This document shows positions 17,991 through 53,110 of a stretch of 64,000 nucleotides of DNA, piece after piece. A model generated the notes under the pieces. The model was not told the DNA's origin. It saw only the letters and a program-made list of their open reading frames with translations, and did no database searches. Within the stretch, counting starts at the first letter, position 1. Each line of letters starts with the position of its first letter. The stretch comes from Prorocentrum cordatum (lineage: Eukaryota > Sar > Dinophyceae > Prorocentrales > Prorocentraceae). The stretch spans positions 196,501-260,500 of the forward strand of contig CAUYUJ010004592.1 of assembly GCA_963575745.1 (NCBI GenBank). Reading direction: 5' to 3'. The position numbers and the translations under genes were made by a program.

Positions 17991-18506
17991 AAAGCCAGAC
18001 CTCGCACACGTGCCATCTGAGCCCGCGTGGGACCCTAGTTTACAAGTTTGGCACCCTAAGACACCTGCACCTTCTCCTACCACCCTAACGTCCATCGCGA
18101 ACTCATTAGCAGGGGGAGGGAAAGCATCAGGGCCGGAGGTAAGGTTGGAAATAACTCCTAGCAAGAATGTTAAGCTATGTTCGGCTTGCTCAACGCACTT
18201 CGCTAGTGAGGCATCATCGAGCAAGTCGCTTCTGAGGGTCGCGGCCTCCTCGGACTGGCAGTGGAACAGCCTGTGCACAAGCGCGCCTCCTGCCAATCCA
18301 CGCAATGGGCAGCGGTCCTCAATGGCACAACCTGCTGTAGATGCTCGACTGGTCGTCCAGTGGGCCTGACGCAACCCAGCACTCAGGAGGGCCGCCTGAC
18401 CCGCAGAAAACGATTCCTTCCCAGAAACATTCAACATCCTCCTGGCAACGTCTAAACACATCCTGGGCAGTTGTCTAAGACTTTTAGCTGCTTTGATTTC
18501 CCACAT
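17883..18506 (-). pseudogene. Element B zinc knuckle and RNase H start
   Basis: A continuous frame of 207 codons. CPLRGLAGGALVHRLFHC is the C-x-n-H-x-n-C knuckle typical of dinoflagellate LINE ORF2 proteins (the second Cys of the expected CxxC is Arg here). It is followed by a linker and SDGTCARSG, the start of RNase H. Sequence is similar in codon texture to the frames on either side. Confidence 0.7.
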
Positions 18507-19359
18507 CCTCGCGCACGCGTCTCGAAGCCAGTGTTCCAGCAGCTTCGAGCGAGAACAACTTGCCTTCGTGCGTTTTCAGCACGAATGGCACTCGACAAGT
18601 CAGCGCGGCAGTGGCAGGTCCTCGAACTTGACTATACTTGAAACCAGAGCGTGGCTCCATCTGCTCCCAGAAAGTTTCCAGCCCTCGAATGCCCAAGGTT
18701 CCCATTGGAGCAGCTTTGCCAATCCCAGCAGACCAAACTTCCTGAGCCCAGCGACCTATCGGCACCAGGGCCCACTTCTCAGCTTTGGACTCATTCAACG
18801 CAAAGGTAACCGCTCTGCGTTGTCCTTTACACTTTGGGCCTGTTGCCGACAACTCGATGCCTCTAAATCGTTTTAGATATGCGTTGGAGGCAAGAGCACC
18901 CGCGGGTAAAACCCCGCAGGTGGCAATCTTACGGGCCCCCTGGCCAGCAACGCGAACAAGTTGTTTCAATCGAACAGCTCGTTGTTTCATCTTGTGAATC
19001 CTCTTGGCCCTCTTGGTGTCCCTGGAAACAGCGACCGATTTCCCACTTCTGAAATCTGACCCGAGGTTGGTGGTGATTGGTTGCTGTTTCCCTGCCCAGG
19101 CTCCTAGGGCCTTCGATATGTGCCTGCCGAGCGCCGCCGAGGATGCGACAAGAAAACGCTCGTCGACAGACAAGGCGGCGTCGAGCTCACCCTTGATCAT
19201 GGCTGCCACATGCTCGGCCGCCTGCGCCAGCCACTTAGAAGTATCCTTGCTCGAGCCGAACGCGGTGAGAGAGAAATCATCGAGGTGGGTCGGAACCGGT
19301 GAAGATGGCTGAGTTGAGAGAGGTAATGAGGAATCCTTGGGTGCAGTAGATGATGACAT
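18484..19359 (-). pseudogene. Element B reverse transcriptase, catalytic and thumb region
   Basis: Begins PVPTHLDDFSLTAFGS: HLDD is the position of the catalytic Y-x-DD motif. Then a thumb-type segment rich in Lys/Arg (RDTKRAKRIHKMKQRA, RLKQLVRVAGQGARKI) and GVLPAGALASN. 291 codons without a stop, but it does not join in frame with its neighbours. Confidence 0.7.
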
Positions 19360-20378
19360 ATACTATAGCGAGCGAACAGCCAGCTACAATGCCTCTGAAA
19401 ACACACAATGCCTTGGACACTGCTCGCCGGTGTCCTACACACCTCGCAAAGCCATGCGCGGCAAGATGGAACTGCATAAGAGTAGGACTGAATCCTAGTT
19501 CTCGGCTTCTGGAGAGCAACCTGGCTCGCACAAGCCTTTCGCAAAGCGAAACCAGGTCCCAGAAGAGGCCCGCGGCGGCCCCGCCAGGTCCTTGACGCTT
19601 CTCTACGAACGCTGTCTCCAGACAACATCAATTGGGGACCTGCCAGGTCCGCAGCTGACCCATGGGTGATCGAACTTTTCCATCCAAGCCCTAGCACAAG
19701 GTAACCTGATCTTCCCAGAAACCCGATAAAACATGCTGAAGATCCCAATAGTACGGTACCCTCGGAAGAACGCCATGAGCACGCTCTGAAGCTGAGGAGG
19801 CAGGCCACCCAGACACCCAGAATCCCGAGAAGGTAAATCAACACCTGGACTCCCTGCTCCATCATACAGGAAAGATGCCTGCAGTGAAATCCGTCAAAAC
19901 TGGCTGCAGATCTAGCGGGGCAAGACTCGCCGATGTCCTGCGCAGCTGAAACAGAGGGCAGCGGAAGAGCATGCTGTACAATAGTAATGCGATGGTGAGG
20001 CCCAGGCGTCGCCTCCCAGAGCTCGTCGCATGTGCGATTGTACTCGTCGATCAGAGACCGCGCGCCGTTTGACCTCACACTTTCAAAAACGCAAACCTCT
20101 GGCCCCCACTTAACTTGCCCCGTGCAAAGTCTGCGTGCTGGGCCCGCGCCCTTGTTCAAAGACGTCATGGCCCAATCCTGCTCACTCTCTCGATGCTTTT
20201 TGTGGGAGTCTCCGATCACTGCTTTAGCATAAGCGACCGCCACGCCTAACACTTGCTCAAGTTCGAAAGCGAAATCGTTCCGATGCCCGAGATCAAGCCC
20301 AGACTTGCAGTGCATAAAACGAACGAACTTCTCGGGCCAATTGCTGAACAGTCCGAAATCTCTTGCTCGCGCTTGCAT
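19197..20378 (-). pseudogene. Element B reverse transcriptase, fingers and palm
   Basis: The 393-codon frame has SFDGFHCRHLS, then LIYLLGILGVWVACLLSF, then EASRTWRG, matching the G-x-H/P-RH segment, the LP-K strand and the downstream palm helix of LINE reverse transcriptases. The overlapping frame 19531-19277 carries FRGIVAGCSLAIVYV, the GI-x-AGC motif, so a frameshift lies near 19540. The usual Lys of LPK is not visible. Confidence 0.65.
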
Positions 20379-21591
20379 GAACTAGTACATGGCGGGGCTT
20401 GGCAGATGCAAATCTACTGCAAAGCTGGCCAGCACCACGAGCTTGATCTGCGAATGCTGTCGGCCTGCCAACAAGCCGACCACACCCAACAACTGCAGCA
20501 TCCGCCTGGTGCGAGACACTAGCCAGGCAGGGCCCTGCGCAGCAGCTGCAACACACGTGTATTGGAGTTCTCTGGACGGGAGCTGCGAGATGGGGTTTCG
20601 TCGGGTAAGTTTCGATCCAGTCCCACCCGCCACCTCCCGCTCCGCCCTCTGCACCCAATACCTTTAAAGCATCGACAGAAGTCCCCTCACTCCTGTTGGT
20701 TTTTTCTGTCCCTGGACGTCCTTGAAGCTGAAGAAACAAGTGCTCGCTGCGCTCCGGAAAGTCGAACCAATCAACGTGCGAGACTCCGATCTCGCACCCG
20801 TCTTCCGGCACCTCACACGCCAGTGCGGGCGCCGTATCGAACTGCAAGATACGAACCTGATGCATGCTGGCTGGTAGTCTTATCTGCGCAGGAAAGCGAG
20901 GTCTACCATGCCAACCAAAAGCGGTTAAAACTGAAGTGACCAGCTTAGCCAACTCAGACTATACACTGAAGTAATCTACGACCGTCGACTTGCCCCTATC
21001 AGATAAGGGCGGTTCGGGGGCCAAAACTTGCGCCCTAAGCGCCGCCGAAAACCCAGAAGCCAAGGACTCATGCGGGATGTTGAAGCCCCCCCCCCGATCA
21101 TGCACTGCATGTTTGACGCTGTGCAATGTGTCGCAACGCGCTCCAGAAGCTCCAGGTTAGTGATAGACAAGCCTTCGGAGACTTTCCCATCGACTGAAAC
21201 GCATAATGCACCTTGCCCCCCCCCCCCCCCCGGAAATCCACCGCGCAAGAAAGCGCCCTACCCCGAAAGGGGGCCCCTTCAGGGGGGAAAGGAGGTGGCT
21301 CTAAACTGTAGGCCCCTAGAGTAGCTCTTACAAATATGGCCGCTCCAGACGAAACGCCATCGCCCCTAGGTCACTGCGACTGGGGCCAGACGCACCAGCG
21401 GAGCCAGCGACACTCGGCGCCCAGAACGGCATCCAACCGCGGTTGAGGGCCCAAGCGGATGCAGTTCCCAGGGGCCCTTCCAGAAGCTTGACCTCCCAGG
21501 CAAGCAGAACTGCGACCGTGGAGTTTTGCAATTCCCCCTGTCTCTGTTCAATGGTACCCCAAGAAGAACCATTGAAGGCTTCCACCAGCAT
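20293..21591 (-). pseudogene. Element B AP-type endonuclease
   Basis: Nicks target DNA to prime reverse transcription. The frame 21591-21328 has AVLLAWEVKLLEG (Q-E-T/H-K position; the Glu is kept, the Gln is Trp), GWMPFWAPSVAG and a SRSDLGAMAF segment like the GGxSGGVA strand of related LINEs. The frame 21248-20976 has SEGLSITNLELLERVA and CMIGGGAS, where IGGDWN is expected, so the catalytic Asp-Asn pair is lost. The region to 20293 is diverged. Confidence 0.6.
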
Positions 21592-21624
21592 AGCCTCCCC
21601 ACCATCACCAAATCCCCAATCAAA

Positions 21625-22501
21625 CTAGCCCTGGTCGGAATCAAAATCGCCGTCGGATAACTCAGGCCCAGATCGGTTGTAGTCGCTTAGGTAGGCTGTG
21701 CTGCAAGTGTCACAATCAGCGCTTAGCTCGCACCGACCTACAGGCGCTGCTGAAAAATTGCTACCCTGGCGACCTCCTAGCAGCTGCATCTGCGGCTTCA
21801 GTTGCAGCTGCCTCAGCTGCCCCATCCGCCAGACCCAACTGCTCCTGCTCCGCGTGGGGAACGGGACCCACGCCGATCATCATCTTCTGCATGTGCGGGT
21901 GACTGCCCTTTGCCGCTGCCTGCGCCAGGAGGCCCTCGATGGCCTGTCTGCTAGGGCACAGCAGGCAGCTTGGCAACTGCTGGGCGCGCAGGCGCAGGCG
22001 GTGCAGGTGGCCGCGCAGGCTGGGGCGCCTGCTCAGGCTGTTCTGACTTGCTAAGCTCCTCCTTCCCCCCCCCCCCCCCCCCCCCGGCTGCGCGATGTTC
22101 CTGGGGGAGAGGGGCCCCGAGCGCCTCAAGCTGCTTCTCCTCGACGCTAGGGCAGGGTGGCGATTTCTCATCAGCTTGCATATCCCGTTTAGCCGCCTCC
22201 TCGAACCCCCCTGCCAACTGCTGCGCTGCCTTGACCAGATGCGCAGCCAGAGACTCCGAAGAGACATTGACAGAGCTAAGATCACCAAGGTGGGCCCGCG
22301 CCTTTGTAGCCCATGTCTGAGACTGCTGGTCCTCCTCGAGCTTGAGCTGCTTCTCGGCCTTGCCGAGCCGTTGCTGCAACTGCTTGCCGTCCTCTCGCAT
22401 TGTCTCAAGAAACGTCTCCAGCTGTCCAATGTAGTCGGAGTTATCAGCCATTTGCTCGCGCAACTTCTCGACCTTGTCCATTGCCCGCTTGACGCGGGCA
22501 C
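21625..22501 (-). pseudogene. Element B coiled-coil region
   Basis: Frame 22481-21951 begins DKVEKLREQMADNSDYIGQL and stays in heptads through KAEKQLKLEEDQQSQ, then turns Pro/Ala-rich after a poly-Gly made by a C18 run (22067-22085). Probably the RNA-binding ORF1-like part. The C run is a likely site of slippage or assembly error. Confidence 0.6.
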
Positions 22502-22552
22502 TGGCTCACTGAACTTGATTGCGGTGGGGCAGGTGTACTACGGCCTGCTCCT

Positions 22553-23008
22553 TCAGCTGCGCCGGCTTATACTTGGAGGCTGCAAGTGGCTGCTCGTGTC
22601 CAGGAGCGAGATCTTTGCTGGCTGCGCTGGCTGATGCAATGTACTTATCGAGTGATTCAATCTGGCCTTGAAGCCCGTCGGAAGCAACTGCGGCCGGCAG
22701 CTGCGTGTCATCGTCACAATCATCGCATTGCTGGGTCTTTGGCTTGGCAGCAGCTGTGACACCTCCATACCTATACTGGCGGTACTTGAATAGGTGCGAC
22801 TGTTGAGCTCCAGCTGATGTATGCGACGTGACGATGTGCCTCCAGTTCCCGCGTGGACATTCCCTCTGCCTCGCTTCGGAGGCCATCCATTTGGCGGCTG
22901 AAAGTTGGCTCCGCAATGCTTACACCGACGAATGCCAACATCGAGATATACCCAACTGCGCGGGCAATTGTGACAAGCCGCCCATCGCCTCGGTGCGCCG
23001 CTGACCAT
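22553..23008 (-). pseudogene. Element B N-terminal zinc ribbon
   Basis: WAACHNCPRSWVYLDVGIRR then CKHCGANFQPP: a C-x2-C...C-x2-C ribbon of the kind found at the start of dinoflagellate LINE proteins. The start Met at 23008 lies about 180 nt after the spliced leader. The overlapping frame 22916-22506 continues the protein (QGQIESLDKYIASASAASKD) and implies a frameshift near 22900. Confidence 0.65.
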
Positions 23009-23188
23009 GGCTGAGGGTGGGCAAACGGGAAGTGAACGGTGAGTGATGTGTCCCTACGGCTGCGGGTCGCAGCGCAGGGGAAGGGAAAGACATGCGGCCC
23101 CCTGGCCTCGGCGCGGCCTCCTGCGGGGGCCGTCAAGAAACTGGTCTCTGCACGACCTCGAAGAAATGGTTTACTTGCTCCAGGATGG

Positions 23189-23210
23189 CTTGAGCCATAA
23201 TGGATACGGC
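23189..23210 (-). other. Relict spliced leader at 5' end of element B
   Basis: The minus strand reads G-CCGTATCCATTATGGCTCAA-G. The dinoflagellate SL is known as D-CCGTAGCCATTTTGGCTCAA-G; 19 of the 21 fixed bases match. It is followed by CCATCC, not by the GTA donor of an SL RNA gene, so it is a trans-spliced copy. Its first base is the last base of the retrotransposon before satellite DNA resumes. Confidence 0.85.
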
Positions 23211-23516
23211 CTATGCGGCGGCGAAACGTGTGAGGGGTGTGCCGAAATGGGTGGTGGGGAGGCATGCGGGCGCAGCCACTGGGGCCTTCGGTGGAGCTCC
23301 CTATGGGGCCACGAAACGTGTGAGGGGTGTGCCGAAATCAATGGTGGGGGGGGGCATGCGGGCGCAGCCACTGGGGCCTTCGGTGGAGCTTACTGTGGGG
23401 CCACGGAATATGTGAGTGGTCTGCCGACATGGGTGTGGGGGAGCATGCGGGCGTAGCCACTGGGGCCTTCGGTGGAGCCCCCTGCAAGGCCACGAAACGC
23501 GTGAGTGGCGTGCCGA
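23211..23516 (-). repeat. 89-bp satellite, array 3 (remainder of array 2)
   Basis: About 3.5 units in the orientation of 15440-16959. The first unit starts at CTATGCGG, continuing the unit broken off at 16959, so arrays 2 and 3 were one array before element B inserted. Confidence 0.85.
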
Positions 23517-23630
23517 AGCTGATGACGATGATGGTGATGATGACGCCGAAGATGGTGAATATGATGGTGATGATGACGCCGATGGCCATGATGACGATAA
23601 CGGCGACGGTGTTGACGATGATGCTGCTGG
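23517..23630. repeat. GAT-rich tract left of element A
   Basis: Degenerate GATGATGACG units ending GATGATGCTGCTGG, directly before T6 (23631-23636), the reverse complement of the element A tail. The tract resumes at 28788. Confidence 0.75.
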
Positions 23631-23977
23631 TTTTTTCTTCCAGCACGGGACCGATGGCAATGACACGTTAACAACTGATGAAGTCCAATGTCCCGGGCGC
23701 CCGTGGGAACATCCCCACCGAGACAAGCCCGGCTTCGCGGGGCGCCAAGGAGACGCAGCAAGCAGCAGCAGCGAGGGAGGACGAGGAGGGGGGGACCGAT
23801 CAACCGCTCAAGGCCATTGTCAGGACTAAGCTAGCCACCCGAGCACAAACGGGGCGGCGGTGAGAAAGAACACGCTGCAACCGCGGGGCGCGGCGCCTGG
23901 AAGTTGCCCAGGTCTCGCGCGCGGGCGCGCCGCCAAGGCAGGGGCGAGCCGACAAGGGGTGGCCCAGCCCAGTCGCA

Positions 23978-24466
23978 TCAATTGAGGTGCACTAACGGCT
24001 GGAGGGGCGGCGCGGGGCCGCAGAGAGACTCTCTCAAGCAGAAACGCAAGCAGAGAGAGGCAGGGCGGGCCTCGAAGCCAGCTCGGACGCCACCATGTCG
24101 GCAACAACAGAAGGGGGAGAGGGAGGGGGGGGGGTCCTCGGGCGACACTAAGGCCGAAACTAAACGCAAACGAAATTGGGAATGGGCATGCACAAAGTAT
24201 TCCGCAAGCGAACACAGGGCAACGTCACGCATAGCGTCGGGAGCTCGACCGCCCACGCAGCAAAGCACAGGAAGCGGGGCAGCAAAGTCAAGGGGGAAGA
24301 GAGGGCGAGCCCAGGACACTAGGAAGCCAGCAACTTTAGGGCAGCGCTGGTAGTGCAAGATGTCGTCTCGGCCGTCAGGGGCACCGAAGAGACATCCCTT
24401 GGGGTGAGCGTGAAACCTAGCCGACGTCCGCAACCGCCGACAAAGGATCCCTACAACCGCGACCAC
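23978..24466 (-). pseudogene. Element A C-terminal zinc knuckle
   Basis: CLFGAPDGRDDILHYQRCPK matches the C-x-G(C)-x-n-D-x-HY-x2-CP knuckle closing ORF2 in one group of dinoflagellate LINEs; the second Cys is Ala here. Overlaps the end of the RT frame, so a frameshift lies near 24440. Confidence 0.6.
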
Positions 24467-25487
24467 TTAAAATTATTGAAACCACATTACAAACACGTTT
24501 CATCCGAATTTGGAAGGCAGGAAACCAGACTGCAGGCGGGAGGGGGGGAGGGGGCCACTCCAGAACCCGACGGGGGACTTCGCCAAGGGCAACGCCAGGA
24601 CGCTCATCATCACGAAGGGCCTTGAACATCTGGGCTTGCGTGACTGTCTCGGGGGCTTCAGGGCAGAGCATGCGGGCGCGGGGGGCTGCGCGGACGTACA
24701 CCTCGTTCCTATAACTCAGAAACGAATTGGTAGACCACGCACGAAGAAGCCGATGTGGAATCATATCCCAAGAGACATCATGCGTCTGACGCAATTTATT
24801 CTGGAATTCCGTCCAAGCTGACGAGCTCTGAACAGTTCGATACACCGACGCGACAGCGATATGCCTAATGGAGGCACACTGAGTATTACATCCTGTGTCC
24901 GTCAAGTTAAGCATCATGGGACTGCCGAAGCTATAGCGCGGGCCCGCATGTAGGATTTGAAGGGCACGGTCTTTAGGCATGCATAATCTCGCAGCCGGAC
25001 GATGAAATTGCAAGACGTAACTCAGCACAGTAACAGCACGAGCGCTGTAGGCAACGATCGACTCAGCCAGGCCGGCCCCCATGAGACGAATCTTGCATAC
25101 GCGGAAGAAGTACTTGTCACACTGTGTCGGGAAGGAGTGCAAATGGGCCTCGGGGCCTACCGAAACACCAAGACAGCGACACCATCGAACAACAGAGAAG
25201 AGCTCGCAGCCACCCCCACTAGAGACCAGGAGCGCACGAATACGAGCCTCATCACCATATGCACCCATAAGAAGAATGCGTTTCCCGAAGTGCAGCTCCA
25301 GCCCGATAGCGTCAGCAAGTGAACAGAGCTTACGGACGACTGGGATCAAATCAGAGAAGAGGGTGGTCAACAGGAAGCGGAGGTCGTCGGCGTAGCCTGA
25401 AAGACAGAACCAGGTGGTCCTGTTGCAACAAACCACCGACAGACAGGATCCAGGGCCAGGGCAAGCAGAAGCATGGACGCGGGGCAT
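24417..25487 (-). pseudogene. Element A reverse transcriptase, YADD to thumb
   Basis: A 356-codon frame. SGYADDLRFLLTTLF holds the catalytic YADD. Then GLELHFGKRILLMG (the K-T position after the palm), WCRCLGVSVGPEA (LG-V motif), and a thumb and connection region (AYSARAVTVLSYVLQFH). The frame runs upstream of YADD only briefly; the preceding motifs are in the frame at 26002. Confidence 0.75.
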
Positions 25488-26002
25488 CCTTGACGAACAC
25501 TGCGGCCCACGGGGAAGCTGGCCAGGGAGATTCCACAGAAATGGACCCGAGCGAGGTTGCCCCGATAAAGGTTATCAAAATATTTAACCGCCCAATCAGG
25601 GATACCCATACTCTGCAGAACAAATAGTGCCCAGTCGATGATGAGGCTGGGAAGCGCAGCTTTGAAGTCCGTGAAGAGCTGGGTAGCATCGTCGCGGCCT
25701 TCAATGTGAGCCAGGAGACCATCACCCTCACAGGCAATAGTATTGTCCAGAATCGAACGGCCACGGACCCCGCTAGTGAGAGTGCTGACCTGGGTAAGCG
25801 GACTAGCGATAGCAGCGGTAATCAACTTGCGACCTGTACATCCCATAGACGGCGGACGGGTCGAAGACGGTTTCCGAGCGGGGGCTGCAGTGGCACCCGT
25901 AGGATGACCCCCCTTCGCCAAGAAGACCATCAACATCTCATGAAAGTCACCAGGGAGCGGGTCATGAGGATGGCAAACACAGTTCAGATAGAAATCGCAC
26001 AC
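25367..26002 (-). pseudogene. Element A reverse transcriptase, fingers and palm
   Basis: Shows RPPSM, then TQVSTLTSGVRGRSILDNT, TDFKAALPSL (where F-x-D-x-KAFD is expected), QSMGIPDWAVKYFDNLYRG and SVRQGCPASMLLLALALDPV, the standard order of LINE RT motifs 1 to 5. RPPS replaces the common RPIS/RPIA. A frameshift near 25400 moves the YADD motif to another frame. Confidence 0.75.
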
Positions 26003-26050
26003 AATCGCTTGAGCCCCAGGATGTTTCCAGCAGCCGCACGGTAGGCCGTC

Positions 26051-27073
26051 TCAATCCCAGGCATAAGAAGTCCCCGACTTCTTTACCAGGGACCCGAATG
26101 CACCGGCATCAAGGATCCATTCCTGATTCGGACAGAGGACGCCAGCACGCTGGATGTACTGGGAGAGGGTTGGCCAAAGAGAACGGTTGGGGGACTTGGC
26201 CGCGAAGACAGAACCCCAATGACGAGACAGCTCAGCACCAGCATGCTGCACCGACGTGCAAGGCGCCCCCGTGCTCTCAACCAATATATTGCCGAGGCAG
26301 GTTGACTTGTTCAGACTGCGCCAGCGTTCCCTATTGCGCTGCACGCGTGCGCGACGGCGTGCTACCTCGTGCTGCGGGAGTTCCCTCGCATTTAAGAGGG
26401 CCCCTTCCTCATCATCAAGCAACTGGTCGTTAAGAGATGCAGTGCGCGCATGCAACCTCTGAGGATCAACGAACGTACCAGCGTCAACATCAATGAAGTT
26501 GGAGAGCAATGGATAGGCACGCACTGCGCGCGCAACCAGATAGAAAGAGGAAGCACGAAACCCACGCAGGGCAGAGACACACCAATGCAGATACTCATGG
26601 ACGGTCGTCGCCAGCCGAGCACGAAGGATTTTACGAAACTCAGCATGCGCCTCGTGCATAGCCACCTTGGTGCGAGCGAGCTGCTGCTGAATCGGGAGGC
26701 TCCGATCAATGTTTGCGATCAGCCCATCCAGACACCTCATGTACTCCTCCGTGGTAGGGGCCCAACCAGGAATCGGGGGAGGACCGTCAGCCGCCCGAGG
26801 CTTCGGGGCACTGGCGACCATAACAGGGACGTGGTCGGAAGGGTGCTTGAGGTTAGTGGGCATCCCAATAGCGGCGCCAGTCACGACAAGGTCCACGGGC
26901 ACGGCAAGGGGGAATATCCACATAAACTCGATCCAGACGGGCCGTCGAAACAACCTTGGGACCCAGACAGGCGCGACGCGTATCAAGCGGTTGGTGAAGC
27001 TTCGTCCAGGAACCGAAAGCAACATTCCACTCACGAGTAAAGGCCGTGTCCCCCCGAGAGAAAGCCCCGTCAT
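26051..27073 (-). pseudogene. Element A endonuclease end and ORF2 linker
   Basis: HPSDHVPVMVASAP is the C-terminal SDH motif of AP-type endonucleases (catalytic Asp and His both present). The following 270 codons are the linker between endonuclease and RT, helical and rich in Arg/Leu, with no known domain. One uninterrupted 340-codon frame. Confidence 0.75.
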
Positions 27074-27350
27074 CTATGTTGAACCTCCCTTCACCACTGA
27101 AGACAAAATTGACGCCACCGAGCATGATGTGGGCGGCGGCAGCGGCAGGGGGAAGAGCAGACTGGATGCAAGAGAGACAATGACGATAGTAACCAATCCC
27201 AGCATCAACATTCGGCAGGTGCACAACCACAATCCCCCAGAGACCAGCTTCACCCCATCCGAGAACGTACGACGCCTTACCAGGATAGAGAGTCTGCTTG
27301 GTAGAACCACTGAGCTGAAAAGCTAGCTTATCATGCGCGCAGACGAGCAT
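26853..27350 (-). pseudogene. Element A endonuclease, middle
   Basis: Contains YVLGWGEAGLWGIVVVHLPN, HIMLGGVNFVFSG (GGDFN expected, so the Asp is replaced by Val) and ARLDRVYVDIP (LDR-I/V-Y motif). Overlaps the next frame by about 220 nt, so a frameshift lies between the LDR and SDH motifs. Confidence 0.7.
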
Positions 27351-27407
27351 GCCATGGCCCTGCAGGTTATCTGGGTGAGGGTTGAAGAAAAACCTGTGAG
27401 ACGTGAA

Positions 27408-27707
27408 TTATTCCTTGCGAAGCGAGACCAAGTCACCCTCATGACCATGAGACTCCTGTGTACAGACGACGTGGTTGCGACGTAGGGGGGCAGCGAAAAG
27501 GCGCCAACGCGTACAAGACCTGGCTTTCATACTAGCCACACTTGCGAACAGGCCCCTGGCATTCCACGCGACGATCGATAACGGTTTCTTCGGTGGGAAG
27601 GGAATGTACAATGTCTCCCCACACTCCCTAAGAAAGCTTTTGGCCTCGACGAAACGGCCCTCGCACACGAGAGAAGCAACCTCCTGTGTCAGCCACCCAG
27701 CCTCCAC
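27408..27707 (-). pseudogene. Element A endonuclease, N-terminus
   Basis: KPLSIVAWNARGLF (WN-x-RGL, catalytic Asn) and VVCTQESHGHEGD (QE-x-x, catalytic Glu) open the AP endonuclease. Begins about 30 nt after the ORF1 stop, so ORF1 and ORF2 are almost adjacent. The frame ends near 27408 (LRKE), where a further frame change is needed. Confidence 0.75.
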
Positions 27708-27735
27708 GGAGGCACTAGACTCTGTAGAGACACTG

Positions 27736-28614
27736 CTAAAGACTCAACTGCTGCCGTACCTTTGCTACCATCTCCTCATGCTTACCCGCGAGGCCGATCT
27801 GCTCGACGTGACAAGCGAAGGCGATCACACGAGGCTGCTCAACGACTGTCAAGAGCTTCTGAACGCTGAACAACTTTAGTGCGTCACCTGTCGACCCATT
27901 AGCAATGAAGGCGAAGCCGTTGCCGACCGACGAGTCAACTTTCCACCCTTCGAGTTTCGGTACCGACTTCACTACCGACTCGACTCCCGTACGAATCTTC
28001 CCCATCACCGTAAGCTGCTTGTTCGCCCCCCCCTCCCTGAGAGGCTTGAGGCGCAGAAAGCGAGGGCCCTTGGGGGTGTTGTAGGAGTAGCCGACAGGGT
28101 AATTCTCACGAAAGGTCTCGATTGTCTCAGACGCAGCATCACCCGACGGGAAAGCCAGAATCACTTTCTTGGAGAAGTTCTGGGGGGTGACCTTCATCTG
28201 AGCCAGGACTTCAGCACTAGCACACGACGTGAGAATCTCCTGGCACGACTTCAGGAGGACGGCCCTCGTGAACTCATCAGCATAGCCAACAACAGTCGCT
28301 TTCGAGAGCATGTCCTGGTTACCGCTCCTGGAACGAACATTGAGACGGGCCTTCTTCGCCGAACTCTCTCTGCTGTCGTCGCTGCTGATGTCGAGGCTGC
28401 TGTTGCCGTTGACCGTCGCCGCCGCATGCATCGCTGCTAACGCTGCTTCGGTCTCCTCAACCTTTTGCTTCTGCAACATCAACACATCCGGCAAGCTCTT
28501 CAAAGTGACGGCAAGCTCGGAAACCTGCTGTGCCACCTTCGTGAACGACTCATTCATCAACCCCACTTGAGCAGTCAACTCCCTGATCGCAAGCTCTGTG
28601 GCGTTCGGCGCCAT
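27736..28614 (-). pseudogene. Element A ORF1 (coiled-coil protein, intact frame)
   Basis: 292 codons, ATG to stop, the longest plausible intact protein in the window. Residues 1-70 form heptads (ELAIRELTAQVGLMNESFTK, then VEETEAALAAMHA). An acidic Ser-rich stretch (SLDISSDDSRESS) and a basic KKARLNVRSRSG segment follow. The C-terminal half, with strands such as KKVILAFPSGDAASE and YSYNTPKGPRFLRLKP, resembles the RRM-like part of LINE ORF1 proteins in layout, though the fold is inferred. Likely role: coating element RNA. It starts 152 nt after the spliced leader. Confidence 0.7.
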
Positions 28615-28765
28615 GGCACCGATGATCAGAGCACAGACTGAAAACGAACAAGTGATCCGATCAGGTCGGAGAGAGGGGGAAGCAGAGCAGGGCTGCTATG
28701 CCCAGGATTCGAGCAGTCCCCTCAGCAGCGACCAAGCTCGAAGCGCCAGGGCCGCACGTTTCGAA

Positions 28766-28787
28766 CTTGAGTCAAAATGGCTACGGA
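28766..28787 (-). other. Relict spliced leader at 5' end of element A
   Basis: The minus strand reads T-CCGTAGCCATTTTGACTCAA-G. This matches the dinoflagellate SL at 20 of its 21 fixed bases (GGCTCAAG became GACTCAAG), and T is allowed at the variable first base. TTCGAA follows, not a splice donor, so this is not an SL RNA gene. The GAT microsatellite begins at the very next base outside. Confidence 0.9.
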
Positions 28788-28984
28788 TGATGATGATGCT
28801 GATGGTGATGATGATGATGATGCTGATGGTGATGATGATGGTCGTGACGTCGATGATGGTGTGATGACGACGACGATGAGGATGATGTTGGTGATCAGTC
28901 TGATGATCATGCTGATGGTCATTGCGATGATGATGATGAGGATGATAATGATGATGATGATGATGATGATGATGATGCTGCTGC

Positions 28985-29019
<35 letters not shown>

Positions 29020-29040
29020 CTGATGAGGATGATTATGCTG
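28788..29040. repeat. GAT microsatellite right of element A
   Basis: About 80 GAT/GCT units with interruptions. Together with 23517-23630 it probably formed one tract before element A inserted. Confidence 0.9.
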
Positions 29041-47739: not shown

Positions 47740-48500
47740 GCGGCACGCAATTATGGGTCGGCGGAATGAGCGAAGATGTTCAATAATCGCAGCGCTGGGG
47801 CAAGAGCCCCAGATATAGAGAAACCGCCCACCATCTGACAAGCGAATGCACACTTTTACAGCGAGTGTTCGCGAGATGCCAAAAAGTTTGAAAGCGTTCC
47901 CCATCCATCCCCCAAACTGTTGCAGATGTTTCCAACGAGTGTTCGCAGCACTCGCGCGAGAACCACAATCTGGCAAGGAACCGCCCTCCATGCGTGAAGC
48001 TGGCGCGGACTTCTAAAACAAAGGTGTGCGGAGCCGAGGCGAAAACCACCTTTTGACAATGATCCAGCTGCCACGCGCGACACTGGTGCAAGTTTGAAGG
48101 GCCCATGCGCGCGGCGCTGGGAACAGGACAGCGATTTGAACAAGGAGCCGCCCTCCACCCGTGAAGCCGTTGTGAACTCGTGAGGCGAATGTGCGCGACA
48201 CTGCAGAGAGAAGAACATGTTGGAAAACAGTCGCCCTCCACCTGCGAAACTGATGCAACGTGTTGAAATACATGCGCGCGGCGCAAACACGATAACCACA
48301 TTTCGAAACAGAGCCGGAGCTGCTCGAAACTTTTGAAAATATCTGTGCGGTGCCAGAACGAGAACCATATGTTGAAAAAGAACCGCCCTCCATCCGTGAA
48401 GCGGTTGCACGCTTTTGACACGAATTTGCGCAGCGTTACAGCGAGAGCTCCATTTTGAGAGCGACTCGTCCTCCATCCAGAAGCTGTTGGAGAATCCTAT
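47740..48500 (-). repeat. 72-84 bp tandem array inside copy 1 (about 9 units)
   Basis: Each unit has CCGCCCTCCA(C/T)CCGTGAAGC, a GTTTGAAA-type run and GCGCGCGGCGC(T/A)... with GAGAACC. Unit lengths are 72, 81, 84, 84, 81 and 84 nt over the best-preserved part, all multiples of three. The minus frame 48533-47856 therefore runs 225 codons as a 24-28 residue repeat (GWRAVLFQ, GGRLFSN, EGGSLFK). The other two minus frames are also largely open, so coding remains uncertain. Confidence 0.7.
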
Positions 48501-48983
48501 TCGGCGAAACGCCCTGCCCGCCCTAATTACCAACGCGTTTGGGGTTCGACAAGGGGGACGTCATTTCCAAAGGAAGCAGGATGGAGAACGAGGATCCAGA
48601 GGACGGCACCCACGAGGAGGACGATGAGGAGGAAGAGGAGGATGAAATCACAGAATGAACCGACCTCGGATGAAGTCGTTTTCTGCGTTCACCGCACTGC
48701 GGAGGGCGAACACGGAACGCGGGAGCAGAGGAGGCAGGAGGCCGAGGGGGAAGCGACGACGACCCAGAGCGCAGACAGGGCGACGCGGAGAGGCCGAGGA
48801 AAGAGGACAGAGGAGGAGGACGAGGGGGAGGAGAGGCAGGATGATGAGGACGAGGAGAAGGACAGGAGCGATGACGTCGAGAGCCCAGTCGGGAGTCACA
48901 CCTCCTTCCCCCTCGACCCGTCCCGTCTGGAGGCGGTTGAGGACGATACGGGCACCCGGGGAGTCTGAGATTGGATAGGCCCA

Positions 48984-49148
48984 GGAGAACAAGAACAAAT
49001 AGCAACAACATAAACTTCTGGCGCTCCGCCAAGTTTCTTGGATGCGCTGGGGCGCCAGAGGCGTCGGCGGGGGGGGGCCCAGCGCGGATCCAAGAAATCC
49101 GCGCGGAGCGCCAAAAAATTATGTCCATGCTGTTTCTTCTTCGATCGT
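48984..49148. mobile_element. Foldback element A, copy 4
   Basis: CATAAACTTCTGGCGCTCCG...GATCCAAGAAATCCGCGCGGAGCGCC...TGTTTCTTCTTCGAT. Its twin at 51567-51731 arose by the tandem duplication and is not an independent insertion. Confidence 0.75.
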
Positions 49149-49778
49149 GAAGAAAGGGGATACAAACAAAACCGCTTAAAATCGGTCCTCAACCCCCTCG
49201 GAGGGTTGCACCCGATCAATTTTTCGAGCCGCGCCCAGCCGTGACGACGAGGAGGCTCCTTTCTTCCCCCCCTGCCTGCTGGCCGTCAACCGGTGACGGG
49301 CAAGCTCAGTCCCCCAGCTGGCTCCAACCTGAATCTATGTTTGCGCTCTCCTTGGCGAGAGAATTTTACAGAAACCCCTTGCGCGGCGCTGTGGGGAGAG
49401 CCCAGTTCAGCCCTCTGTCGAGCGGACCAATTTCCGATGAGCGCGGCGAAAGCGAAGCGCGCGCCGCGTTGAAGCAAAACTGCCACGCTCACCAGAAATC
49501 TGCGCGGCGTATCCTCCACTCTTCCTCCCCGCCCGCCCCGGGCCCCCGGCTGGGTGAGCCCTCCTGGGAGACTCTGTGGACCTCCGCAGCCCGACCAACA
49601 CTGGGACGTCGGCCAGAGTTCTCTCGGCCAGATCTCGCCCAGGCTTCGTCCAGACGTCGACCAAATCCGACGAGATCCAGGCGAACTCCCCCAGGCCGCG
49701 GGGAGCCCTGGGACCCCCCAGGAGCCCCCCCGGGAGGCTCCCGGACCACGCAGAAGCCACCCCTGGAGGCTTCTCGAC

Positions 49779-52337
49779 ACCCCAAGGCGGCCCAAGAGGC
49801 CCCTCAGACCGCCACAAGAGGGCCGCATAGGCCCCCCAGAGGGCCCCAAGACGGCCCAAGAGGGCTCCAAGACGGCCCAAGAGGACTCCAAGACGGCCCC
49901 AAGAACGCCCCAAGAGAGGTCCGGCCCCGGGGGGGGAACACGAAACAACAGTTCGAGCCCTCGGCCCTAAGAAGGCCTCAGGAATCCCCAAGAGGCCCCT
50001 AAGAGGCCCCCAAGAGGCCCCCAACGGGCCCTCAGGAAGCCTCCAAGAGACCCCAAAGCGGCCCCAGGAGGCCCTCCAAATGACCCCCCGAGCACGCAAG
50101 CAAGTGCCAACGCCCCGACGCGTTTAAGAGTCCCCACGGGGCCACCAAGAAGCCTTCCGAAAGAGTCCCCTCGAGCAAAACGCTTCCAGACGGCCCGCGA
50201 CGTGTTCAAGACTCCCCCAGCGGCCACCAAGAAGCCTCACATGATGCCGAACGCAAATCCTGATAAAAACAGCCGCCGCCCCCACAGCTCCGCACCGCGA
50301 AAGACCACTCGGTCGATCGACAGCGGCACGCAATTATGGGTCGGCGGAATGAGCGAAGATGTTCAATAATCGCAGCGCTGGGGCAAGAGCCCCAGATATA
50401 GAGAAACCGCCCACCATCTGACAAGCGAATGCACACTTTTACAGCGAGTGTTCGCGAGATGCCAAAAAGTTTGAAAGCGTTCCCCATCCATCCCCCAAAC
50501 TGTTGCAGATGTTTCCAACGAGTGTTCGCAGCACTCGCGCGAGAACCACAATCTGGCAAGGAACCGCCCTCCATGCGTGAAGCTGGCGCGGACTTCTAAA
50601 ACAAAGGTGTGCGGAGCCGAGGCGAAAACCACCTTTTGACAATGATCCAGCTGCCACGCGTGACACTGGTGCAAGTTTGAAGGGCCCATGCGCGCGGCGC
50701 TGGGAACAGGACAGCGATTTGAACAAGGAGCCGCCCTCCACCCGTGAAGCCGTTGTGAACTCGTGAGGCGAATGTGCGCGACACTGCAGAGAGAAGAACA
50801 TGTTGGAAAACAGTCGCCCTCCACCTGCGAAACTGATGCAACATGTTGAAATACATGCGCGCGGCGCAAACACGATAACCACATTTCGAAACAGAGCCGG
50901 AGCTGCTCGAAACTTTTGAAAATATCTGTGCGGTGCCAGAACGAGAACCATATGTTGAAAAAGAACCGCCCTCCATCCGTGAAGCGGTTGCACGCTTTTG
51001 ACACGAATTTGCGCAGCGTTACAGCGAGAGCTCCATTTTGAGAGCGACTCGTCCTCCATCCAGAAGCTGTTGGAGAATCCTATTCGGCGAAACGCCCTGC
51101 CCGCCCTAATTACCAACGCGTTTGGGGTTCGACAAGGGGGACGTCATTTCCAAAGGAAGCAGGATGGAGAACGAGGATCCAGAGGACGGCACCCACGAGG
51201 AGGACGATGAGGAGGAAGAGGAGGATGAAATCACAGAATGAACCGACCTCGGATGAAGTCGTTTTCTGCGTTCACCGCACTGCGGAGGGCGAACACGGAA
51301 CGCGGGAGCAGAGGAGGCAGGAGGCCGAGGGGGAAGCGACGACGACCCAGAGCGCAGACAGGGCGACGCGGAGAGGCCGAGGAAAGAGGACAGAGGAGGA
51401 GGACGAGGGGGAGGAGAGGCAGGATGATGAGGACGAGGAGAAGGACAGGAGCGATGACGTCGAGAGCCCAGTCGGGAGTCACACCTCCTTCCCCCTCGAC
51501 CCGTCCCGTCTGGAGGCGGTTGAGGACGATACGGGCACCCGGGGAGTCTGAGATTGGATAGGCCCAGGAGAACAAGAACAAATAGCAACAACATAAACTT
51601 CTGGCGCTCCGCCAAGTTTCTTGGATGCGCTGGGGCGCCAGAGGCGTCGGCGAGGGGGGGCCCAGCGCGGATCCAAGAAATCCGCGCGGAGCGCCAAAAA
51701 ATTATGTCCATGCTGTTTCTTCTTCGATCGTGAAGAAAGGGGATACAAACAAAACCGCTTAAAATCGGTCCTCAACCCCCTCGGAGGGTTGCACCCGATC
51801 AATTTTTCGAGCCGCGCCCAGCCGTGACGACGAGGAGGCTCCTTTCTTCCCCCCCTGCCTGCTGGCCGTCAACCGGTGACGGGCAAGCTCAGTCCCTCAG
51901 CTGGCTCCAACCTGAATCTATGTTTGCGCTCTCCTTGGCGAGAGAATTTTACAGAAACCCCTTGCGCGGCGCTGTGGGGAGAGCCCCGTTCAGCCCTCTC
52001 TCGAGCGGACCCATTTCCGATGAGCGCGGCGAAAGCGAAGCGCGCGCCGCGTTGAAGCAAAACTGCCACGTTCACCAGAAATCTGCGCGGCGTATCCGCC
52101 ACTCTTCCTCCCCGCCCGCCCCGGGCCCCCGGCTGGGTGAGCCCTCCTGGGAGACTCTGTGGACCTCCGCAGCCCGACCAACACTGGGACGTCGGCCAGA
52201 GTTCTCTCGGCCAGATCTCGCCCAGGCTTCGTCCAGACGTCGACCAAATCCGACGAGATCCAGGCGAACTCCCCCAGGCCGCGGGGAGCCCTGGGACCCC
52301 CCAGGAGCCCCCCCGGGAGGCTCCCGGACCACGCAGA
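49779..52337 (+). repeat. 2.56-kb tandem duplication, copy 2
   Basis: Same content as 47197-49754. Homology starts at ACCCCAAGGCGG and ends at CTCCCGGACCACGCAGA. Visible differences include CACGCGCG/CACGCGTG (48079 against 50661) and CAACGTGTT/CAACATGTT. Confidence 0.95.
51567..51731. mobile_element. Foldback element A, copy 5 (duplicate of copy 4)
   Basis: Carried by the tandem duplication. One G/A difference in the central G run. Confidence 0.75.
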
Positions 52338-53110
52338 TCCTCCTCCCCCCCGCCCTGGGCTCCCGAGGCTCCTCCTGCACCCTGCGCAGCTCGAGCAGCA
52401 CCTCGAGGGGCGGCGGGGCCGCGAGAGGCCGCCGCGAGCGGTCGAGAGGGGGTGGGGGGGGCAGCCGCCGGCCGCGCAGCACGGGGGTCCACGGCCCCCG
52501 AGATCCTGGCGTCGCAGCCTTCGCGCAACGAGCGCTCTGGCACAGCTCTGGTTCGGAGGCCCGAGGTGGGTGCGGGCAGAGGGGGTGCGGTGCCGAGCAG
52601 CAAGTGCCGCCCCGAACCGACAGCGCCCGCTGTTGGGCAGGCTGTCTTCTGCCTCGAATGGACAACGTCCGCGGCGACGCCGACAACGAATCCTTTCCAG
52701 AATGAGCAAGAACTGCTGCCGGTCTTCGCACCCACCCTTTCCGTAGCTGTGTCGGTCGTGCCGATTCGGGCTCCAGGGCCTTCACAGATCTATCTGGCTC
52801 GACAACTGCCGCAGACCGATGGGGTCTGGCACTCTGGTCGTGATTGTTCACGGTGCTGCAGCCTGTTCGCGTCATCGGATCTCAGAGGGGGGGGTATCCA
52901 AGGATCCTCTTCGTTAAGGGCTTATCGGCTGATGCTGTCATTCGACCCGCGCTGGAGTGTCTACGATTTGCCGATTTGCTTTAGGTTTCCCTGGAGATCT
53001 CTGCATTTGCGTCTGTTTGTCTGGAAGTCTTAGCTTTGCTTGGATTTTGATGCACCTCGAATAAACAGGCATACTCCCCGCAAGTGAATTTGAAACAAAT
53101 CGTCAAGCAA
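52338..53110. repeat. Spacer with dispersed repeat D1, copy 2
   Basis: 52560-52780 carries the D1 words (CGCTGTTGGGCAG, GACAACGTCCGCGGCGACGC, AAGAACTGCTGCCGGTCTTC). The rest, including 52340-52550, is GC-rich with no recognised gene. Confidence 0.55.

Follow-up and report, generated by a model that had tools for sequence, protein, structure and literature searches.

LINEs must preserve their 5′ end through every copying round. How element A, a LINE that starts with a spliced leader (SL), does so is the question raised by the 64-kb window analysed here (the whole stretch of DNA; GC content 59.2%). LINEs are known to achieve this with an internal promoter or, as L1Tc does, with a ribozyme that trims a co-transcript (PMC8190864; this and all other papers are cited by PMC number and for the parts of their text covered by our search). 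A leader acquired by trans-splicing would add another way, with an end made by the host and renewed in each cycle.

Genomic SL relics, derived from reverse-transcribed trans-spliced RNA, have been described on dinoflagellate retrogenes (PMC6050394, PMC12014239, PMC7245778). LTR elements are favoured as their mediator in PMC6050394, and the mediator is left open in PMC12014239; a LINE with an SL bears on which reverse transcriptase makes these SL-tagged retrogenes. SL relics on retrogenes, the abundance of LINEs and trans-spliced TE transcripts (in Hydra) are already in print, and a literature search, with subscription papers mostly outside it, found no statement of LINEs with an SL as their genomic 5′ edge.

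We consider it very probable that element A belongs to a set of APE-type LINEs that have the host SL as their genomic 5′ end and to which host trans-splicing resupplies the SL in each cycle. The observation itself, that element A starts with an SL, is confirmed and holds for LINEs of several families; it suggests that on copying these parasites take the beginning of their RNA from the host.

The two leaders of the window and the elements behind them

The minus strand from 28787 to 28766 reads TCCGTAGCCATTTTGACTCAAG, which is the DinoSL with a single change (G to A) in its 21 fixed bases, just as the sequence-only reading had claimed. The microsatellite that this reading placed next to the SL is there as well: a (CAT)n tract abuts directly upstream, and the T at 28787 can be assigned either to the tract or to the SL. 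As the 5′ insertion flank of A, this (CAT/ATC)n tract extends from 28788 to 29040, its outer limit being approximate and drawn by eye, and its clean part is found by a repeat scan. Within the window two sites match the SL with at most three mismatches, against none in 100 shuffles, and even with up to five mismatches there are only these two, the heads of element A and of a second element, LINE B.

Downstream of the SL, element A (all features on the minus strand) continues with a conserved 5′UTR module (28700–28765), starting TTCGAAACG, that is common to other LINEs. The ATG of ORF1 (27739–28614) is at 28614, separated from the SL by 151 bases. ORF1 has the homologues P0001–P0003 and is matched in two other copies of the element, L163 and L164. 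An AP-endonuclease-like region in two open pieces (26856–27743) follows, matched in L163 and L164 and in loci L009 and L014 (see below); the similarity to L009 and L014 is what identifies it, a Pfam search with the region as it stands in the window having given no match. In P0001 the AP-endonuclease-like part continues from ORF1 in one frame. The reverse transcriptase with its flanking coding region occupies three overlapping open pieces (24420–27073), again matched in L163 and L164, and the piece 25370–26050 has a Pfam RVT_1 match below the cut-off (E 9.6e-4). By eye, element A ends at approximately 23631–23648 (with GAAGAAAAAA), has a run of six A near this end and then gives way to a CAT/ATC-rich 3′ insertion flank (23500–23630, by eye), which is weaker than the 5′ tract and was missed by the repeat scan.

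LINE B starts on the same strand with the second SL (23189–23210; two changes), found by the SL pattern search. Directly after it a possible decayed 15-nt relic SL (CCATCCTGGAGCAAG, four changes; 23174–23188) can be read by eye. Its reverse-transcriptase-like region (18607–19910) starts 3.3 kb past the SL and was recognised by tblastn with the LINE of L018 (E 1.2e-27) and by our own reverse transcriptase profile (E 2.2e-6); Pfam gave no match for the piece 18487–19362. The flank of LINE B (18607–23210, minus strand) is a tandem repeat and not a microsatellite.

Spliced leaders across the genome

The genome (4,128,499,153 bases) contains 33,832 SL sites with at most two mismatches, as compared to 9 for the reversed pattern. 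Together with the shuffles of the window this rules out a chance origin of the SL match, an objection that the sequence-only reading had raised against itself. Since the density amounts to about 0.5 SL per 64 kb, the occurrence of an SL is by itself unremarkable; what is remarkable is its exact placement at the 5′ edge of a LINE. In two Symbiodinium genomes 496 and 244 SL sites have been counted (PMC8045281).

One hundred sites listed among the 33,832, all exact and from contigs C1 to C114, were examined without omission. A repeat of period 2 or 3 was present in the 60 bases upstream of 64 of them (67 when the scores were rounded) and in none of the 100 controls taken from bases 61–120 past the SL start, with a background of 3.5% for the window and 6.1% for the loci of 10 kb. 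Sorted by motif, 45 sites had CTC upstream, 19 had GAG, 8 a repeat of AC/AT type, 2 had CAT and 26 none of these. Three near-identical SL sites (L057, L058 and L059) lie within 8.3 kb on one contig and have the same flanks on both sides, unlike LINE insertions.

What the leaders head was examined in 20 loci of about 10 kb, namely 19 consecutive listed sites (L009–L027) and a longer cut of the L004 site (L028). A reverse transcriptase was found on the SL strand in 12 of them (L009, L010, L011, L013, L014, L015, L017, L018, L019, L023, L024 and L027), of which seven, together with the window, served to build the profile and match it by construction. The same seven loci have Pfam RVT_1 matches, above the cut-off in L009, L011 and L017 and below it in L010, L018, L019 and L027, and Exo_endo_phos was above its cut-off in L009 and L011. 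Reverse transcriptase and AP endonuclease domain, by which an APE-type LINE is recognised, were thus both found, and the assignment to this type goes by these domains. For the LINE protein of L011 no homologue was obtained at E 1e-3 among 7,986 candidates scored.

In the remaining eight loci (L012, L016, L020, L021, L022, L025, L026 and L028) no reverse transcriptase was found near the SL, a weak match in L025 (E 4.6e-4), 8.3 kb downstream of the SL, apart; this counts against the explanation that we prefer. L028 nevertheless bears the 5′UTR of A type. Pfam searches with the open frames of L021 and of six other such loci gave nothing clear, the six yielding two weak matches below the cut-off, Cwf_Cwc_15 in L026 and DUF4400 in L025.

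Copies sampled blind to the leader

Two SL-free queries were used to collect LINE copies irrespective of what precedes them. The first, a 34-base core of the 5′UTR of A, occurs at 316 genomic places with at most three mismatches (reversed-pattern control 0). Of the first 42 listed, the window and the L004/L028 locus were set aside, and in the 40 left, which are among the best matches of the 316 (0 or 1 mismatch to the core), 150 bases upstream were examined. At the same junction as in element A the full SL was present in 39 of the 40 (22 perfect, 17 with 1–5 mismatches of 21); the 40th, L110, has only the 3′ 15 bases, with two mismatches.

The second query, a 24-base motif of the L009 type, occurs at 1,153 places (control 0). 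The first 24 listed, less four that were already in the SL sample, all had the SL (20/20; 12 perfect, 8 with 1–3 mismatches; best-listed of the 1,153), preceded mostly by CTC-rich repeat and once by (CA)n. Since in 18 of the 20 the ATG directly follows the SL, the SL may be the entire 5′UTR of those copies. With 316 and 1,153 5′ motifs, the LINEs whose DNA shows the copying of SL-ended RNA number well over a thousand copies, the SL-blind evidence itself coming from two motifs, best-matching copies and one genome.

The flanks beyond 59 full SLs were compared with one another, on the basis of the first 40 among 165 matching rows and of every one of the 21 rows extending to the junction. Among these matches the similarity was of the simple-repeat type only, with one exception: the A-type copies L121 and L123 have a GC-rich repeat in common on this side (82% over 68 bases). 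The two may go back to a single insertion that was duplicated, or both may lie in one kind of repeat, possibly a second kind of target. Full-length copies continuing upstream into common non-SL sequence in place of the SL, the finding that the sequence-only reading had named as fatal to itself, did not turn up among the 40 A-type copies.

LINEs with targets of their own in SL exons go by the names SLACS/CRE and NeSL, and element A could likewise have inserted into an SL RNA gene or an SL exon. LINEs that target spliced leader exons are indeed a known class (PMC4640811). We regard this explanation of the SL at the edge of A as extremely unlikely, since what lies beyond the SL is for the most part simple repeat, unrelated from copy to copy, and since in 8 of 20 loci the upstream repeat is found again on the 3′ side. 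These flanks led us to reject insertion into an SL gene.

L163 and L164, the places of L131 and L133 in the SL-blind set, were picked after their SL had been seen. Over about 4.65 kb, spanning the ORF1, endonuclease and reverse transcriptase parts, they match A with 81% identity and, in three pieces with an insertion, with 90–91%, and their SL forms the same junction, with CAT-rich tracts other than that of A. In both, some 70–97 bases of the 5′UTR and ORF1 start of A recur downstream of the coding region (L163:4751–4843; L164:5634–5701). L102, found by its UTR, has the first 88 aligned bases in common with A and then continues as a different LINE. The short 5′UTR module beside the SL (28700–28765 in the window; L102, L028) is common to LINEs with otherwise different bodies.

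The 5′UTR was also inspected for RNA elements. No Rfam family, and hence no 5′ HDV-like ribozyme, reached the gathering score in the 20 loci; for 28300–28900 of the window Rfam gave only 15 snoRNA matches, none of which reached the cut-off and each of which lies in the CAT repeat or extends across it. Eight single-sequence folds (z −2.2 to +1.0) were not convincing as a conserved fold.

Stacked leaders and their renewal

At 15 of the 100 exact sites the SL is followed by a 15-nt relic of another SL, CCATTTTGGCTCAAG (at most three mismatches), and the same arrangement is found in 5 of the 40 SL-blind A-type copies (L103, L115, L123, L138 and L140). The older leader is cut at TCCGTAG|CC. L115 and L140 have in common a changed inner relic beneath differing outer SLs, from which it follows that an SL was added onto an older, already changed one. 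Stacked SLs mean that SL-bearing copies were mobilised again; to judge from these sequences, such copies were evidently re-spliced and re-inserted.

The DNA thus demonstrates that LINE RNAs ending in an SL were copied by reverse transcription all the way to that end and then inserted, and that this happened repeatedly. The sequence-only reading had proposed trans-splicing of the element's RNA and reverse transcription up to the 5′ end, which the SL-blind copies, the unrelated flanks and the stacked SLs support.

Could the SL have been captured once by an ancestor and now be inherited as ordinary LINE sequence, without trans-splicing in each round? The divergence of the SL (29/798 sites) equals that of the first nine UTR bases (12/342), as such inheritance would have it, in copies that were picked for good UTR matches; moreover, one SL change, the G to A of element A, is common to L138 and L129. 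This variant may have been inherited or may come from a variant SL RNA gene. Against a single capture are the SLs that head LINEs with different 5′ sequences, the SLs stacked on older changed ones that are cut exactly at the inner AG, and the mostly private nature of the SL changes. In the 20 L009-type copies all 12 changes are distinct, and in the 39 A-type copies 30 changes are of 18 kinds, none in more than three copies, unlike UTR columns of the A type that split with 4–7 of 40 copies. Selection for an intact SL could be an alternative source of changes that are only private. Taking both sides together, we judge a single capture to be quite improbable.

A different objection is that the work is done by a small number of master LINEs that have an ordinary promoter upstream, the SL-bearing copies being promoterless by-products and dead ends like the SL-tagged retrogenes. 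The SL relics already known from retrogenes (PMC6050394, PMC12014239) are in line with this, and the coding regions of A, L163 and L164 are all broken into several open pieces. Not one of the 60 SL-blind copies was without SL sequence, however, a sample in which rare masters could be missed; the stacked SLs show renewed mobilisation of SL-bearing copies; and very long open frames, stop to stop, exist elsewhere at SL-bearing loci (1,584 codons in L009, 2,786 in L019). Dead-end copying is therefore unlikely in our view, though of the three alternatives it is the one we take most seriously. Renewal of the SL by host trans-splicing remains the explanation that we prefer.

Insertion targets

All 8 sampled copies that bear the A subfamily signature AACGTGCG(A/G)C are located in (CAT)n, versus 1 of 32 for the others (p 1.2e-7). 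Among 139 SL junctions 41 have clean CTC flanks, 34 of which break after CCT (with or without an extra T), and five have clean CAT flanks, all of which break after CAT. The (CAT)n preference and these break positions point to targets that are probably subfamily-specific; microhomology over one base, the initial T of the SL, is a possible contributor to the break positions. Copies are found in the same kind of simple repeat, as with microsatellite-targeting elements, though not strictly, 26 of the 100 SL sites having no such repeat upstream. The insertion site being a microsatellite, a target duplication is indistinguishable from the repeat.

At 8 of the 20 loci (L009, L011, L013, L015, L017, L021, L024 and L027) the repeat seen upstream comes back where the element plausibly ends (ends by eye), and at none of these eight bracketed 3′ junctions was poly(A) read. 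That 3′ ends join the microsatellite without visible poly(A) suggests that priming may occur by pairing with the repeat and not with a tail.

A proposed cycle

In the cycle that we propose, an inserted copy would be transcribed by read-through, and its transcript would receive an SL from the host by trans-splicing, with an AG at the element start as acceptor. If the resident SL provided this acceptor with its terminal AG (CTCAAG|), as presumably in single-SL copies, a single SL would be regenerated; if it did so with its inner AG (TCCGTAG|), the product would be SL plus 15-nt relic. Reverse transcription would then run to the extreme 5′ end of the RNA, and the product would be inserted into the microsatellite favoured by the family, probably by target-primed reverse transcription, whereby the SL would become the new 5′ edge, carrying the acceptors for the next round. 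The cap may also have a role in the LINE cycle.

In CTC targets the microsatellite could act as polypyrimidine tract. The 40 bases upstream are at least 80% pyrimidine at 43 of the 100 exact SL sites and at 11 of the 15 stacked ones; the 19 sites after (GAG)n have no pyrimidine tract there for an acceptor, which counts against the proposed cycle, as do the 26 sites that lack any of these repeats.

We lean slightly towards a more general proposal, according to which several LINE families gave up their own 5′ promoter and most of their 5′UTR and rely on host trans-splicing for each copy, the resident SL supplying the acceptors and the CTC repeat maybe the polypyrimidine tract. It could explain most of the 33,832 SLs and also the SL-tagged retrogenes.

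Relation to known systems

With the DinoSL-tagged retrogenes the LINEs described here share a 5′ end formed in the genome by a DinoSL or its relic, which results from reverse-transcribed trans-spliced RNA, and the 15-nt relic after the SL corresponds to the DinoRL form of PMC12014239. They differ in that the tagged RNA is that of a LINE: the body of element A does not come from the mRNA of a host gene but is LINE coding sequence common to L163 and L164, the SL or part of it is kept in 60 of 60 SL-blind copies, no poly(A) was read at the eight bracketed 3′ junctions, and the usual flank is a microsatellite. SLs near viral insertions have also been reported, with LINE involvement suggested (PMC10235124).

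Like HERO and Togen, which are microsatellite-targeting LINEs (PMC4640811), the elements insert into simple repeats with family-specific targets. The HERO and Togen groups have a restriction-like endonuclease (PMC4640811), whereas L009 and L011 match an AP-type endonuclease and have a 5′ SL.

The genomes that harbour the trypanosomatid L1Tc/ingi LINEs likewise use SL trans-splicing (PMC8190864). A 5′ promoter and an HDV-like ribozyme (Pr77) are present in L1Tc, and its RNAs are unspliced (PMC8190864), whereas the elements here start with the SL. In Hydra about 30% of the TE Iso-Seq reads carry an SL (PMC12220107); the SL is reported there on transcripts, and in the text covered it is not described as a genomic 5′ edge.

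Further observations in the window

Close homologues of ORF1 (P0001–P0003; the best with 72% identity over 95%) are listed under the green alga Pyramimonas sp., which may reflect dinoflagellate contamination of that data set. Elsewhere in the window, an ORF block at 47780–52705 recurs at an offset of 2,583 bases in the ORF list and is a tandem duplication.
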